Below the pieces are notes generated by a model. The model did not search any database. It was not told the origin of the DNA and worked only from the letters and a program-made list of their open reading frames with translations. A program made the position numbers and the translations under genes. DNA of 64,000 nt from Spirosoma sp. Lineage in GTDB: Bacteria > Bacteroidota > Bacteroidia > Cytophagales > Spirosomataceae. Location of the stretch: contig NZ_JAPLET010000022.1 in NCBI RefSeq assembly GCF_026391055.1, positions 711,648 to 775,647 on the forward strand. Direction: 5' to 3'. The first letter of the stretch is position 1; each line of letters opens with the position of its first letter. Shown one piece after another: positions 34,944 through 58,667 of the stretch.

Positions 34944-35483
34944 TTATTTGTTAGCCAACACGTTCTCTACTTGTGAGAACCGGGTGCCACCAACTTTGCG
35001 ACCACGCTGATTCAATTTTTGAACTGGAGTTGTCATGTGCCCCAGGCTTAGTGATTTGTATTGATCCATCAAATCAAAAATTGTCAAAGCGTATTCAGAA
35101 AGTGGCTTTTCGATAGCACCCTCAGACTTTCCCACCAGAACGTCAACCGTTCGTTGTAAGCCAGCTATTTGAAGATCTTTGGCCCGCAGTTGTTCTTCAA
35201 ACATAGCCTTCATCTCATCAATATCTTTGGCCATTTTGCTTAAAATTTGCCCTCCGAAACCTGACAAATCTTCTGGCTTTTCGTTTGTAGCTCCATAAAG
35301 TTCTGAGATACTTATGTCAAAAAATTCGGCGATCTTCTCTACTCTAACTGCAGTGAATGTATTGTTTTTCATCATTGCATCGAACCCTTGCATACTCATC
35401 CCAAGATAATCATATAGACTTTTCTTGGTCCTTCGCTCTTGCTCCAGGAGCTTCTCGATTTTCTCCTTCAAACTATACTTCAT
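34944..35483 (-). CDS. HTH phage regulator (probable repressor)
   Basis: A 179-residue protein. The N-terminal 65 residues form an XRE-like helix-turn-helix ('RRTKKSLYDYLGMSMQGFDAMMKNNTFTAVRVEKIAEFFDISISELYG' in outline), followed by a coiled-coil (~75-120, 'DIDEMKAMFEEQLRAKDLQIAGLQRTVDVL') and a short basic tail. There is no peptidase S24 domain, so it is not a LexA/CI-type self-cleaving repressor. It faces the operator-like region at 35515-35601 and the early genes. A repressor role is inferred from that position. Confidence 0.75.
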   Translation of the reverse strand: MKYSLKEKIEKLLEQERRTKKSLYDYLGMSMQGFDAMMKNNTFTAVRVEKIAEFFDISISELYGATNEKPEDLSGFGGQILSKMAKDIDEMKAMFEEQLRAKDLQIAGLQRTVDVLVGKSEGAIEKPLSEYALTIFDLMDQYKSLSLGHMTTPVQKLNQRGRKVGGTRFSQVENVLANK

Positions 35484-37166: not shown

Positions 37167-37334
37167 ATGAACGCATCAGTACCCCCCCAGCAGACCCCTG
37201 CGGTAGTCGAGCAGCTTTTCGCTCAACTTCAGCAAGATTGTGGCGCATCAGCCATGGTAACATTCAAATCGCAAGGCTACCGCCACGCCCATAACATCGA
37301 CGCATCAGTTCACCCTCAAACGGCTCTGAACTGA
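37167..37334 (+). CDS. Small phage protein, 55 residues
   Basis: A short frame 'MNASVPPQQTPAVVEQLFAQ' continuing to a TGA that overlaps the ATG of the next gene (TGATG). This coupling supports both starts. No family recognised. Confidence 0.5.
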   Translation: MNASVPPQQTPAVVEQLFAQLQQDCGASAMVTFKSQGYRHAHNIDASVHPQTALN

Positions 37335-37744
37335 TGCTTACTTTTTTTGGTAAACCTGCCCTCAAAGCGGCCCAGTCTTTGACAGAACTACGCCATGTCG
37401 AGATCGAGACACTTTACGTCGCGGTCAGTTTGCATCCAGAAGGAAAAAAGTTACTGGCTACTCAACTGGAGCGCGACATCGATGGGAAATCACGAGGCTG
37501 GAATCCAGTGCCGTTTACCCTACTTCAACTGCAAAAATTTGACCAGTTGTTAAAGCGCAAACCTGAAAGTGACCTGGTAGATGACGTATTATTCACTCAT
37601 GAGGAACGCAAAGAACTGGCTATGTACGCAGTGCGCTATTTTGTGATGGCGCGGGATAGTGAGGATGTTGATAGGGCCACGGCCTATAAACTGTTGATTT
37701 CTTCCCTGTTGGAACTGTCAACCCTGATTAGACTACCCCTATGA
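37334..37744 (+). CDS. Phage protein, 136 residues, unknown function
   Basis: A mostly helical acidic protein ('MLTFFGKPALKAAQSLTELRHVEIETLYVAV' to 'LLISSLLELSTLIRLPL'). Its ATG overlaps the stop of the 55-residue frame before it. It is followed by a terminator and the structured RNA region. No family recognised. Confidence 0.6.
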   Translation: MLTFFGKPALKAAQSLTELRHVEIETLYVAVSLHPEGKKLLATQLERDIDGKSRGWNPVPFTLLQLQKFDQLLKRKPESDLVDDVLFTHEERKELAMYAVRYFVMARDSEDVDRATAYKLLISSLLELSTLIRLPL

Positions 37745-37938: not shown

Positions 37939-38004
37939 TACTCCCGAAAGGGAGTATGGTGTGGATAGAAGCGGTTCTACCGGGCTGGTCTCTGGCCTGG
38001 TAGA
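37939..38004 (+). ncRNA. Structured RNA segment upstream of the tRNA-like gene
   Basis: Two strong hairpins in 66 bases: TACTCCC-GAAA-GGGAGTA (37939-37956), a 7-bp stem capped by a GNRA tetraloop, and a 10-bp stem TCTACCGGGC/GCCTGGTAGA (37976-37985 with 37995-38004). They end three bases before the tRNA-like acceptor stem and may be part of one transcript with it. I know no named RNA family that fits. Confidence 0.45.
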
Positions 38005-38007
38005 CTT

Positions 38008-38110
38008 GGGGGATTAGTTCAGTGGAAGAGCAGTGAGAGGAATCGTGTGCTTAGGTTTTCACAGGCGATGACTAACTCTCATTAACGCAGGTTCGATTCC
38101 TGTATCTCCC
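38008..38110 (+). tRNA. tRNA-like gene with a 40-nt anticodon loop
   Basis: The body is canonical: acceptor GGGGGAT (38008-38014) with ATCTCCC (38104-38110); T8-A9; D stem GTTC/GAGC around AGTGGAA; A26; anticodon stem GTGAG (38033-38037) with CTCAT (38078-38082); variable TAAC; T stem GCAGG/CCTGT around TTCGATT. The anticodon loop is 40 bases instead of 7, and inside it ATCG-TGTG pairs with CACA-GG-CGAT. No normal anticodon can be read. CCA is not encoded, as usual in this phylum. It may be an intron-bearing, degenerate or specialised phage tRNA. Confidence 0.6.
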
Positions 38111-38277
38111 GCTATACTGGAAAATCCAGTAGGTTGAAAAGAAGGGTTTTGGAATGGGACAGGCCGGTGGCGCTGCTACCGGCTTATTTAAGGCTTATTT
38201 AAACCCATTTCATTTTTTTTAACGCCTTCACGGGCACCTAAACGGCTTTAGCCATCAACTCGACGATTATGCTCCCA
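38111..38277. other. Noncoding stretch with short hairpins
   Basis: TACTGG/CCAGTA (38115-38131) and GCCGGT/ACCGGC (38164-38184) form small stems, the second followed by a tandem copy of GGCTTATTTAA. One of them probably ends the RNA transcript. No gene. Confidence 0.4.
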
Positions 38278-38460
38278 TTAATCGCTTACCCCTACTATGT
38301 GCCGCCCTAAGTAGGCCAGCCCATCATATAACCCCCGGATGCCAAAGCTGAGTTGCAAATCAGCCTTGTGAGTGCCTACGCGCATCCCGTACCTGCCATA
38401 TCGCCGAAATTTTTTCAGCCATTGACGGGGAAAATTATGTCTTAGCCGCTGGGTCGGCAT
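38278..38460 (-). CDS. Possible 60-residue basic protein
   Basis: 'MPTQRLRHNFPRQWLKKFRRYG' continuing as a basic, aromatic-rich frame preceded by an A-tract. It could bind nucleic acid, but no family is recognised and it is isolated on the minus strand. Confidence 0.3.
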   Translation of the reverse strand: MPTQRLRHNFPRQWLKKFRRYGRYGMRVGTHKADLQLSFGIRGLYDGLAYLGRHIVGVSD

Positions 38461-38690: not shown

Positions 38691-39419
38691 ATGGAAAACA
38701 GAAATAAGTCAGCCATGACCATTGGCCAAGTTGCGCAACAGCAGTTCAATCCCAACCTTCGGGAAGACACATTTAATCTCGAAACAAGCCCACAGACCCA
38801 ACTTCCCGAGGAAGGTCGCAATGGCACATTTATCAAGAATTTTGGCCGCTTTGAGCGGGCCGGAGCAACCTACCACTGGAAGATTTTTCGAGCTGGAAGA
38901 GAAAAGCTGATTGGCTATTCGAAGCCCCTGAACATGGCCGAAAAAGCCAATAAACAGGAGTTGTTATTGGATTGCGTACGGCGGCTGGTTCGAAATGGAT
39001 ACATTAAAGAAGGCATGCGGATTGAGTTTTACCGGGCCTTCCACGAGAGTGATGACGATCAGAGTGTTAAGATTTTCACCATGTACGGCACCCGGTATAT
39101 TCCTGAGCCTGTAATACTTACTGAATCATGGCTAATCGCTTTCCTGAAAAATGTGTACAGTCCCCCGGTTAGCTATTATAATCCGAGCGCCGGACTGTTT
39201 CCAACTGGCGGCAAGAATGAACCACCAGCCAATACAGCCATCATTCCTGATCCGGCTCACCAACTGTCAGCTAAAGACCCGTTCGATTTAGGGAGAAGTT
39301 TTAAAAATGAAGACGCGCTGATGAACTACATGCAGAAACTGCTCGACAATGGCGAGCCCAGGGGCCGTGTAGAGGAATATTACCGAATCAAGATTCAAGC
39401 ATTTCACTCTAGAACTTAA
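38691..39419 (+). CDS. Phage protein, 242 residues, unknown function
   Basis: A soluble protein: a variable N-terminus, a central domain ('FERAGATYHWKIFRAGREKLIGYSKPLN') and a Pro/Asn-rich linker before a helical C-terminus. It opens the second early gene series (38.7-41.1 kb), downstream of the TGTACA array. No family recognised. Confidence 0.65.
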   Translation: MENRNKSAMTIGQVAQQQFNPNLREDTFNLETSPQTQLPEEGRNGTFIKNFGRFERAGATYHWKIFRAGREKLIGYSKPLNMAEKANKQELLLDCVRRLVRNGYIKEGMRIEFYRAFHESDDDQSVKIFTMYGTRYIPEPVILTESWLIAFLKNVYSPPVSYYNPSAGLFPTGGKNEPPANTAIIPDPAHQLSAKDPFDLGRSFKNEDALMNYMQKLLDNGEPRGRVEEYYRIKIQAFHSRT

Positions 39420-40008: not shown

Positions 40009-40362
40009 ATGCTGCGCCTGAAGATTACCCCCCATGAATTTGCGGCTATGATCCACTTCATGCGTCAGGCTACTGAAGGGTACCGCCATAGACCCTTAAA
40101 AAGCCAGTCCGTCAAGGTACTGCTCATGGCGCAGTACTTAGCTAAATTGACTAATCACAAATTGACAGGTTGGCTCATTCGTCCGCGCAAGCCATACGCT
40201 CTGTCGATTCCGTTACCACTGGCCAGGGCGCTGCATCAAGACATGCAGGAGGCTTATCTAGGGGAATGGCAACAGGTTTTCTTAAACACACTCGACCGGG
40301 CTATCACCAATTACCGCGATCCGTTTACTCAGGCCCACACCGTTGGCGAGTTGATCCACTAA
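40009..40362 (+). CDS. Phage protein, 117 residues, unknown function
   Basis: A helical basic protein ('ITPHEFAAMIHFMRQATEGYRHRPLKSQSVKVLLMAQYLAKL' in outline, then 'SIPLPLARALHQDM'). No family recognised. Close packing with its neighbours indicates one operon. Confidence 0.6.
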   Translation: MLRLKITPHEFAAMIHFMRQATEGYRHRPLKSQSVKVLLMAQYLAKLTNHKLTGWLIRPRKPYALSIPLPLARALHQDMQEAYLGEWQQVFLNTLDRAITNYRDPFTQAHTVGELIH

Positions 40363-46041: not shown

Positions 46042-46127
46042 ATTTTGTGAGGCACAGGTTGTGTCCTATTAACTGGCGTTTGTAGCCTGGATGTTTGCAG
46101 CGTCATATTCTCAAGACGCAGCACAGC

Positions 46128-46964
46128 ATGAATCTACTTTCGGGCGCATGGGCCATTTCTGAACTTCACGAACATACCGTCAAAGAGGCTATCCGGGGTA
46201 ATCTATTTCAGCTAAACATGCTCGGGTTCGCACATACGCTGTCCGAAAAGCAGCTTCAGGCCGCCGACTACTCCTACGAAAAAGCCTGGATCGACTACCT
46301 GTCGATGAACGGTAACGTGCCGGTGATCCCCATTCAGGGTACCATGAGCCGGGGCTATTCCTACGACAACTATTTCTCAAATACCTTTTTGATCCAACTG
46401 CTCAATAAGGTAGCCGAAGACGATTCCAAGTCGGGAGCGATCCTGCGCTATGCGTCGGGTGGCGGTACGGTCGATAGTACCGACGAGTTGGCCGCTGCGG
46501 TGGCCAACCTGTCCAGCAAAAAGCCGGTGCTATCCCACGTTTCGTTCTGCGCCAGTGCGGCTCTTTGGTCGGCGGCTCCCTCCACAGAGATCATGATGGC
46601 CACCTCCCCATTAGCCAAAATCGGCTCCATTGGTACCATTTACATTCACACCAATGTGAAAAAGGCGATGGAGCAACAGGGCTACGACATTCAGATTTTC
46701 CGCTCAACGGGTTCGGTCGATAAGGCCAAGCTGAATCCCTATGAGGATTTGGACGAAGAGACCATTGCGGAGATTTATTCTGATCTGGATGCGGCTAACA
46801 AGGCCTTCAAATCAGGCATTCGGGCTGGTCGGGGCAGCAAACTGACCTCCGACGACATATTCACCGGCAAGGTCTATGGCTACGCAAAGGCTAAATCCTA
46901 CGGCTTGGCTGACTCCCAGGGCGATCTGAATGCCGCTTACAAACGAGTTATTCAACTTTCATAA
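46128..46964 (+). CDS. S49-type prohead protease
   Basis: A 278-residue SppA-like serine peptidase: 'GNVPVIPIQGTMSRG', 'AILRYASGGGTVDSTDELAAAV', nucleophile Ser143 in 'SFCASAALWSAAPS', and the general-base Lys199 region 'STGSVDKAKLNPYEDL'. There is no signal peptide. Its place directly before the scaffold and capsid genes makes it the maturation protease that trims the prohead, like phage lambda gpC. The start is the ATG at 46128; an upstream extension to 46095 lacks support. Confidence 0.88.
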   Translation: MNLLSGAWAISELHEHTVKEAIRGNLFQLNMLGFAHTLSEKQLQAADYSYEKAWIDYLSMNGNVPVIPIQGTMSRGYSYDNYFSNTFLIQLLNKVAEDDSKSGAILRYASGGGTVDSTDELAAAVANLSSKKPVLSHVSFCASAALWSAAPSTEIMMATSPLAKIGSIGTIYIHTNVKKAMEQQGYDIQIFRSTGSVDKAKLNPYEDLDEETIAEIYSDLDAANKAFKSGIRAGRGSKLTSDDIFTGKVYGYAKAKSYGLADSQGDLNAAYKRVIQLS

Positions 46965-56590: not shown

Positions 56591-57115
56591 ATGTCTTCCA
56601 ATCTACTGCCCCAATCGTCCGACAAGACTCCCGAACAAAAACGCGCTGAAAGGCTCGACAAGTTTCGGGATCACCTGCTGTACCGCGTTCCGCTCAAGCC
56701 CTCTGAGCACGCCATGCTCGATAAATACCGTAAGTGCTTTGCCTGGCGGGGTAAGCTCTTTTCGCCCCAACAGTGCGTCAATATGCTCATGCAGGAATAC
56801 GGTGTCAAGTATTCCCAGGCGTACCAGATCATGATGGATTCGACCAAGCTGTACGGCAAAGTCGAAGACCTTGATAAAGCAGGTACTACCAAAATCCTGA
56901 TCGAAACGCTCTACGTGGCCATGAGCATTGCGGTAAAAGACCGAAACGCCGAAGCCATCATTGCGGCCACTCGTCAAATCGGTGTCCTCGCCAAACTTAA
57001 CGATGATCAGGTACCCCTGTCGGTGGACGAATTGATGCCTGCCCGTGTGGCCAGATACACGCAGAATAACATCACGGTGAACAATTTCGGCACGGAGGGC
57101 CAAGCTGGTGAGTAA
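56591..57115 (+). CDS. Terminase small subunit
   Basis: A 174-residue protein: a basic N-terminal segment, a helix-turn-helix-like part ('LFSPQQCVNMLMQEYGVKYSQAYQIMMDSTKLYG' in outline), then a helical oligomerisation part and a tail 'PARVARYTQNNITVNNFG'. Its stop overlaps the GTG start of the large subunit by 8 bases. It would bind the packaging site and feed DNA to the motor. Confidence 0.82.
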   Translation: MSSNLLPQSSDKTPEQKRAERLDKFRDHLLYRVPLKPSEHAMLDKYRKCFAWRGKLFSPQQCVNMLMQEYGVKYSQAYQIMMDSTKLYGKVEDLDKAGTTKILIETLYVAMSIAVKDRNAEAIIAATRQIGVLAKLNDDQVPLSVDELMPARVARYTQNNITVNNFGTEGQAGE

Positions 57116-58667
57116 GGAGGCCATTATTACGCTGAACCCCAAGCAGCTGCTGTTTCACCAGACTGTCACCAGCAACCAAGCTGATTTCTTCAAAGACAGT
57201 AAAGCTTATCAGGGCGGATTCCGGGCCACGTTTCAGGGTGGCCGGGGAAGTGGCAAATCCCGCACGTTAATTCATCTACTAGCTGAATCAGCCTTCCAGT
57301 TGCCACGGGCCAAAGCCGGTTTGGCCGGTTTGACCTTTCGCCAGGTGCAGGATATTATCCTGAGCCAGAGCAGCGCTGTTTTTGAAGAACACGGCCTAAC
57401 CGAATACAACTCTAAAACAGGGGTAGGTCAGTACGTGATCAACCGGCGACCGCCGGATCACTGGCGGTCGGCGCTGAACACGGTAAGGACCTACGATAAC
57501 TGCCTTGTTTTCGCGAATGGCTATACCGTGCAGTTTATTTCAGCTGACCGCCCCGAAACCATTCGCGGTGCCAATTTTGACCAATTGTACATCGACGAAT
57601 CGGCTACGATTAAAGAAGACTTTTATAACCGGGTATTACGGCCAACCGTCAGGGCTAACAAATCGATTTATAAAGACCCCCGCCCGGGCCGCAAGGGGCT
57701 AAATCACCCGCTACACTGGCTAATCGCTGATTTCACCTCGGTGCCGACTACGCCCCAAGGTAACTGGGTATTCAAAACAGAGGAGCTGCAAAAAGAGAAA
57801 CCCGAACGGTACTATTTTCAGCAGGCCACCGCTTACGATAATCTGGATTTTCTTCCTGGTTCGTTCATCGATGACCAGCGCGAATCCTGTGGCGATGAGC
57901 TGACCTTCAACATGGAGATCCTGAATCAGCGTCTAAGCAAGATCGCCAATGGATTCTACCACAGTCTGGATGCCAATCGGCACACCTACAGTCAGGGTTT
58001 CGGCTATCAATACGATGATGAAAAGCGGCTTTATGTATCCGAGCGAACCGATTACGATACGAATAAAGCCCTTGATTCCAGTTGGGATTTTAACGCTGAA
58101 TTCACCTCAATGCTGGTGGGTCAGGAGGCCCATGCTGAATATAGGTTCATTGACGTGCTGTTTGTCAAGACCGCTACCGAAACCCTTGTGGAGAAGCTGG
58201 CCACTGAATTTGTGGCCAAATACAAGGACCACAAAAAGAAGGTTCTTCACGTGTATGGCGATAATGGGGCTAATAAAAAGGACCCTGGCCGAACACGCAC
58301 CTACTTTCAAATCATTAAGGATACCCTTAAAAAGGCAGGCTGGACAATCGTTGATCAGGTTCAAACGTCTTATCCCCCCTACCCAATTCGTTACCGCATA
58401 ATTAACACCCTACTTCAAGAGACAAACAAGCGGTTGCCTGTTATTCGTATCAATGAGACAACCTGCAAAGCTTTGCTCATTGCACTTCAGTCTGCGCCTG
58501 TCGATGGCTCGACCTATGAGAAGATCAAGAAGTCGGAAAGCAACAAAAAGTTGCCTCAGGAATATGCCACTCACTTGACCGACTGCTTCGACTATCTTCT
58601 ATTTAAGAAGTTCGGCCAATACGTTACCAGCGGCCACGGGCGCTCGGGCGGCATCGTCGTTCGCTAA
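57108..58667 (+). CDS. terL: Terminase large subunit
   Basis: A 519-residue packaging motor starting at GTG. Walker A 'QGGRGSGKSRTL' at residues 43-54, adenine-binding Gln region near 70-90, Walker B 'DQLYIDESATIKE' near 158-170, and the RNase H-like nuclease with 'SSWDFNAEFTSMLVGQE' near 325 and 'HVYGDNGANKKDPGRT' near 380. Both the ATPase and nuclease acidic residues are present. It closes the terS overlap and is followed by a GC-rich gap without genes. Confidence 0.95.
   Translation: MSKEAIITLNPKQLLFHQTVTSNQADFFKDSKAYQGGFRATFQGGRGSGKSRTLIHLLAESAFQLPRAKAGLAGLTFRQVQDIILSQSSAVFEEHGLTEYNSKTGVGQYVINRRPPDHWRSALNTVRTYDNCLVFANGYTVQFISADRPETIRGANFDQLYIDESATIKEDFYNRVLRPTVRANKSIYKDPRPGRKGLNHPLHWLIADFTSVPTTPQGNWVFKTEELQKEKPERYYFQQATAYDNLDFLPGSFIDDQRESCGDELTFNMEILNQRLSKIANGFYHSLDANRHTYSQGFGYQYDDEKRLYVSERTDYDTNKALDSSWDFNAEFTSMLVGQEAHAEYRFIDVLFVKTATETLVEKLATEFVAKYKDHKKKVLHVYGDNGANKKDPGRTRTYFQIIKDTLKKAGWTIVDQVQTSYPPYPIRYRIINTLLQETNKRLPVIRINETTCKALLIALQSAPVDGSTYEKIKKSESNKKLPQEYATHLTDCFDYLLFKKFGQYVTSGHGRSGGIVVR

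Follow-up and report, generated by a model that had tools for sequence, protein, structure and literature searches.

The locus and its setting

The stretch of DNA analysed here, referred to as the window, is 64,000 nucleotides long and comes from an 8.0 Mb Spirosoma genome (G000, contig C22, 711648-775647). From ca 34.9 kb rightward it carries a prophage, in which a tRNA-like gene lies after an ORF that ends at 37744 and ahead of one that starts at 38691 (Table 1). Its match to the Rfam tRNA family, with 43.8 bits and an E value of 5.1e-6, is the only one in the 64 kb above the gathering score, which is 29 for tRNA. ARAGORN run without introns finds nothing at 38008-38111, and with introns allowed it reports 38008-38112 with a doubtful, unconvincing anticodon. 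No tmRNA was detected at this position, either by ARAGORN or above the Rfam cut-off. The gene does not encode CCA, as the discriminator G is followed directly by CTATAC. Among tRNAs, the body is matched best by tRNA-Ala, which is a candidate parent only.

Table 1. Features of the tRNA-like gene and of the prophage around it, in window positions.
Feature	Position	Strand	Basis
Cro/C1-type HTH protein	34944-35483		prophage gene
Small upstream hairpin, ACTCCCGAAAGGGAGT	37940-37955	+	fold
Motif, TGGTGTGGATAGAAGC	37957-37972	+	sequence comparison
Strong hairpin between motif and tRNA-like gene	37973-38006	+	fold
tRNA-like RNA gene, 104 nt including discriminator G	38008-38111	+	Rfam RF00005
Acceptor 5' strand GGGGGAT, partner 38104-38110	38008-38014	+	7/7 pairs, one G-U
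D arm, stem GTTC/GAGC, loop AGTGGAA keeping GG	38017-38031	+	4/4 pairs
Remodelled anticodon arm, stem 38033-38037/38078-38082, 40-nt loop folding further	38033-38082	+	folds
Inner helices of the remodelled arm	38043-38046/38068-38071, 38048-38052/38063-38067	+	fold
T arm, GCAGG-TTCGATT-CCTGT	38087-38103	+	5/5 pairs
Acceptor 3' strand ATCTCCC and discriminator G	38104-38111	+	sequence
Second conserved element, GGATGC...GAGTTGCAAATC...GCGCATCC, apparently structured, downstream	38323-38409	+	DNA matches in relatives
Head maturation protease	46095-46964		PHROG, E 3.6e-38
Terminase	57108-58667		PHROG, E 1.1e-16

A preliminary description of this DNA had proposed a tRNA-like gene with a 40-base anticodon loop, 33 bases of which are extra and contain a hairpin of their own. 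The covariance score agrees with the gene assignment, the GTGAG/CTCAT stem indeed encloses exactly 40 bases, 33 above the usual number, and the nested hairpin is recovered in the fold. The T loop TTCGATT and the canonical T and D arms, whose stems pair completely, were also described correctly. The acceptor, called perfect, has all seven pairs, but one of them is G-U, such that the word applies only if G-U is counted.

In the fold, the stem of the arm gains one pair on the outside and two on the inside, which brings it to eight (38032-38039 with 38076-38083), and it is followed by the internal loop GAA/CTAA and then by the nested 4+5-bp hairpin. Neither the fold nor a scan of the arm gives a seven-nucleotide loop with U33 on a five-pair stem, that is, there is no canonical arm. 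The fold energy is moderately better than that of shuffled sequences (z −2.3, with 5 of 200 shuffles equally good), and the case rests therefore on the covariance score and on the relatives. The insert in the arm of the window gene has no close relative, and the nested hairpin is thus predicted from the fold of one sequence. What holds for the window gene is that it specifies an RNA of tRNA fold without a canonical anticodon arm.

The core of the upstream motif, GGTGTGGATA, is found within 150 nt upstream of 10 of the 27 related genes described below, nine times at 50-70 nt and once at 137 nt. When the leader and the tRNA-like gene are folded together, z is −4.7. No T run comes after the strong hairpin, unlike many chromosomal copies of the motif. 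Copies of TGGTGTGGATAGAAGC with at most one mismatch are spread widely through Spirosoma, occurring in 35 of 36 genomes, while the reversed control gives 0 or 1 per strand and genome. At least five consecutive T within 75 nt follow 59 of the 132 distinct exact places in the examined loci, unrelated bacteria included, and among the places where [GA][GA]A comes next the T run is present in 56 of 69; the copies ahead of the phage tRNA-like genes are without it. TGGTGTGGATAGAAGC looks like a hairpin-motif-terminator element.

The core pattern of the downstream element occurs in 5 of 222 genomes, the window's included, and in two viral contigs. In relatives, GTTAAC-rich repeats can be seen by eye after the counterpart of this element, possibly a replication origin.

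Related genes

When 99 genomes were searched at the DNA level, 6 had matches, the window's own among them. These gave 13 loci, some overlapping, of which 12 have an Rfam tRNA match and one (L006) does not. For a wider search, homologues of the product of window 40009-40362 were used as an anchor. The anchor is present at 21 places in 13 of 36 genomes of the genus, and at 48 places in 35 of 222 genomes of the family. We examined 20 regions consisting of the other genus places and genome G052, and then 20 of the 26 remaining family places; several of these regions stop at a contig end. tRNA-like genes with the same orientation as the anchor were found in 11 of the 20 regions of the former set and in 6 of the 20 of the latter. 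Two phage contigs (L166 and L168) contributed three more genes, while a third one repeats the G052 gene, and L269 was added by a covariance-model search of the 222 genomes.

Loci holding the same gene were counted once (L001/window; L007/L192/L266; L003/L010/L190; L004/L009/L012/L086/L191; L011/L013/L194; L005/L193; L008/L208; L002/L160/L167/L209; L015/L168; L022/L166; L267/L214; L268/L217). We dropped L202, an ordinary tRNA-Ser on the opposite strand, L227, which is called by ARAGORN only and has an odd D arm, and, in L009/L012/L191, a second ARAGORN prediction of 93 nt that stays below the Rfam cut-off. This leaves 27 genes, the window's included, from Spirosoma-family genomes and phage contigs, 22 of them above the Rfam gathering score; L168a, L195c, L214b, L219 and L269 were found only by ARAGORN with introns or by a model. 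Judging from the anchor gene, each relative probably lies in a prophage.

Searching phage and plasmid collections with a 741-bp region gave short matches only, covering at most 6% of the query among the matches listed, and some of these fall in tRNA genes. The L168a gene had no match in the phage collection or in an E. coli collection, and the viral contigs gave no confirmed relative when searched with the products of window 37334-37744 and 38691-39419. An alignment of homologues of the 40009-40362 product did give confirmed relatives.

The body of the tRNA is well preserved. In 25 genes, 381 of 400 body stem cells (95%) are paired compared to a shuffled mean of 68%, with the D-stem register picked for best pairing and with shuffles that ignore relatedness; L214b, whose acceptor register is uncertain, and L231, which was recognised later, are left out of this count. 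Of the 16 body pairs, 14 have changed on both sides, and none of 500 shuffles equals these figures. The preliminary description had named loss of acceptor and T-arm complementarity in relatives as a refutation, and the pairing turns out to be kept, with 163 of 175 cells in the acceptor and 124 of 125 in the T stem; the D stem has 94 of 100. Defective acceptors with 5 of 7 pairs are present in L190, L194 and L219, as evaluated by script, and L213b has a D stem with one of four pairs and a CCA loop. On visual inspection, the 3' acceptor strand of both L190 and L194 contains an additional, bulged base.

Diversity of the anticodon arms

According to our reading of the folds and to the scan, the canonical anticodon arm is absent in 19 of the 27 genes. 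The arm is extended or enlarged in the window gene, L192, L207, L208, L213a, L214b, L219 and L231, as well as in L195c (loop of ca 70 nt) and L168b (27-nt loop). In L195b and L222 it is capped, by GAGA on four pairs and by TATC on six pairs, respectively. A short stem with the common loop ATGTRTTCCG is found in L193 (2920-2990) and L195a (L195, 5501-5571), and the 3-bp stems under this loop differ by eye (TCG/CGA and TGG/CCA). Finally, in L166, L168a, L214a, L217 and L269 a CAU loop is interrupted at nucleotide 32 by an inserted hairpin.

Canonical arms are present in 6 of the 27 genes, with anticodon UUA in L190, L191a and L194, CAU in L191b and L197, and UUG in L203. The UUA genes (L190 7095-7168, L191 2011-2081, L194 1810-1882) share the loop CUUUAAA and would read the stop codon UAA. 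Ochre suppression by these forms was considered and is unsupported, as UAA stops are not avoided nearby. L209 (5260-5348) has a normal CAU arm and, in the D stem, a 16-nt hairpin that by eye resembles the module of the CAU loops; L197 appears similar to L209, with the D-stem insert absent.

As a control, we considered the ordinary tRNA genes of G000, where 40 Rfam tRNA matches correspond to 38 ordinary genes, the window gene and L192. ARAGORN without introns finds all 38, but it also reports L192, as tRNA-Ile, which means that detection by ARAGORN alone proves nothing about the arm. With a criterion of a seven-nucleotide loop with U33 and at least four of five stem pairs, the arm scan passes 36 of the 38 ordinary genes. 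For tRNA-Gly(GCC) and one tRNA-Met, which do not pass, the scan used a false register, and ARAGORN draws normal loops for both; the 38 ordinary tRNA genes of G000 have normal arms. Among 26 phage genes (L231 not included) only 8 pass, and two of these, L193 and L209, do so in a false register.

The five genes with a hairpin in the CAU loop form a class of their own. The phage copy L168a is identical to the G000 tRNA(CAU) L252 at 71 of 74 aligned bases, and its anticodon loop is altered relative to this candidate parent: base 32 is replaced by a 17-nt module, a 4-bp hairpin plus a 5-nt linker, which is also present in the four other genes. A comparison of backbones, covering L166, L168a, L214a and L217, shows that the first two fit best to L252 and the last two to another tRNA-Met of G000, L246, which by its sequence features is probably the initiator. 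The sequence U-CAU-AA is kept in all five genes. Over the class, 97.6% of cells are paired, two-sided changes are seen at 14 of 25 pairs, and none of 500 shuffles does as well. In the 4-bp helix of the module, 20 of 20 cells pair, with two compensating pairs and the other two invariant; 5 of 500 shuffles reach this pairing and 74 reach the two-sided changes, so with five sequences the evidence for the helix is thin. An alternative module helix (alignment columns 36-41 with 46-51) has 25 of 30 cells paired, which is no better than shuffles, and was rejected. We also searched the 222 genomes with a model of the class built from four sequences, in which the pairs of the module were left out. Among the matches listed there are three full-length copies, two being the model's own sequences (108.9 and 105.8 bits) and the third the new L269 (92.7 bits); the other matches listed are tRNAs of 73-74 nt with at most 74.3 bits. 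The class shows how a remodelled gene can arise.

Possible roles of the genes

Intron-containing tRNA genes of archaea and eukaryotes have extra bases in the anticodon loop, and the preliminary description had raised a small intron as one explanation. The insert of the window gene is nested in the anticodon loop, the usual place of tRNA introns, an RtcB ligase is present in the genome, and by inspection a normal loop results when the CAU-class insert is removed. However, in contrast to the archaeal and eukaryotic cases there is no host splicing endonuclease, as no PF01974 was found in the genome by a search that was positive in four archaeal controls. By eye, a strict bulge-helix-bulge splice motif was not apparent in the fold of the window gene, which has the internal loop GAA/CTAA, then a 4-bp helix and a 1-nt bulge. 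With 33 nt, the insert is well below the size of a group I intron, no Rfam family except tRNA exceeds the cut-off in the window, and the tetraloop-capped L195b has nothing to remove. An insert that is spliced out is thus unsupported and the least probable of the explanations considered here. Decay of captured host tRNA genes into relics would account for the defective acceptors and for the D stem of L213b. The pairing of the body and the many compensatory changes, which no shuffle matches, argue against it, as does the covariation of the five-member CAU class over its whole fold, and we regard relics as improbable. Hardly different in probability is the proposal that the tRNA shape is a processing signal, where the 5' cut of RNase P would set the 3' end of a structured RNA upstream. 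It is consistent with the folded leader, with its conserved motif and hairpin ahead of the gene, but the motif core is close upstream of only 10 of the 27 genes.

Another option is that the genes are decoding tRNAs changed to resist anticodon nucleases, some of which still translate. Phage tRNAs with mutated loops have been proposed to act in this way (PMC10264068), six of the 27 genes have standard U33 loops, and the CAU class retains its anticodon. On the other hand, the folds of the window gene, L192, L195b, L195c, L207, L208, L213a and L219 are without a canonical arm, and no other stop is more frequent than UAA near the UUA genes (5/12, 5/11 and 5/8 of mechanically picked ORFs), so that this role appears unlikely, although less so than relics. 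More plausible, but still doubtful, is a natural tRNA scaffold, in which the body would only mature and protect a displayed functional hairpin that binds a protein or pairs with an RNA. The same architecture is seen in the engineered tRNA scaffold, in which an RNA of interest takes the place of the anticodon stem-loop (PMC3753655). A body carrying a foreign hairpin is common to both, the difference being that one is a man-made tool and the other natural, diverse and phage-borne. On bodies that are still paired, the arm can be anything between a tetraloop and a loop of ca 70 nt. The module is carried by at least two distinct CAU backbones, and by eye the D stem of L209 has a hairpin resembling it. 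For the arm of L208 (gene at 2376-2455), a complement of 11 nt is present elsewhere in the 9-kb region around the gene, while 22 controls reach at most 9. One may then speculate that phages of the Spirosoma family evolved a scaffold system, with carrier bodies and a fast-changing hairpin engaging tRNA-binding defence proteins or other ligands. It might, equally tentatively, include the module as a transferable part on CAU-tRNA backbones and the similar D-stem hairpin. Against this, 11 of 12 arms, compared with nearby sequence only (the surrounding 4-14 kb), show no complementarity exceeding that of the controls, and U-CAU-AA, kept in all five CAU-class genes, would be needless for a mere scaffold.

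With an intron and decay both disfavoured, and decoding by the remodelled forms not expected, what remains is a mimic. The differently rebuilt arms in related prophages suggest mimics rather than working tRNAs, and we propose, with a probability of roughly 40%, that the product is a non-decoding tRNA mimic, most likely a decoy for tRNA-targeting defence. The preliminary description had offered an intron, an anticodon-nuclease decoy, or another role such as priming or capping an RNA; of these, the decoy is the one we prefer, as yet unproven, while no observation hints at priming or capping. After transcription from the phage, RNase P and 3' nucleases would trim the RNA, CCA would be added, and the product would take an L shape whose long arm is altered. 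From its structure, the remodelled RNA should fail on the ribosome, as there is no normal anticodon loop to place, while proteins that recognise the tRNA body could still bind it. During infection it may occupy or divert tRNA-targeting defence enzymes of the host and escape inactivation itself, the cut site in the anticodon loop being hidden or gone, and the varied arms would be consistent with a conflict whose target is not the same in every host. Counted against the mimic are the ordinary seven-nucleotide loops of six of the 27 genes and the defective stems of L190, L194, L219 and L213b. The PrrC-like family PF13166, the only nuclease family searched, has no match in the window's genome. In the genus, 9 of 36 genomes match it, 4 over the cut-off; 3 of the 9 belong to the 13 anchor-bearing genomes, which is about chance, and the family was rejected as tracking these prophages.

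Septu reportedly cuts tRNA-Tyr, Cas13a is said to cut anticodons, and Cas12a3 to cut tRNA tails. The CI RNA of phage P4 is an example of an immunity RNA. Among the matches listed in a search of open-licence literature, with subscription papers outside the scope, no title deals with an enlarged or rebuilt anticodon arm in phage tRNAs. Phage tRNAs are reported to counter tRNA-cutting defence, as in the evasion of retron-Eco7 (PMC11555353), and nuclease-insensitive phage tRNA loops with anticodon-loop mutations have been predicted (PMC10264068); in the passages considered, phage tRNAs act as replacements, and a decoy action as such is not mentioned. These evading tRNAs share with the present genes that they are phage tRNA genes with an anticodon loop changed relative to that of a bacterial tRNA, which is evident here for one member that clearly derives from a Spirosoma-type tRNA. 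They differ in being point mutants or replacements that still translate, whereas here the arm is rebuilt and most genes look unable to decode. In tRNA-dependent lysogeny, an intact phage tRNA replaces one destroyed by integration (PMC10865867). Both cases involve temperate phages with their own tRNA genes, but this model does not fit, since the arm here looks unable to decode.

Implications

The presence of tRNA genes in phages has long called for an explanation. It is important to note that standard annotation hides genes of the present kind, as ARAGORN reports relatives as tRNA-Stop or as a tRNA-Ile of 87 nt that looks ordinary. Genes in which the body is kept and the decoding arm is discarded separate translation from other roles, and would thereby allow a direct test of the decoy idea.
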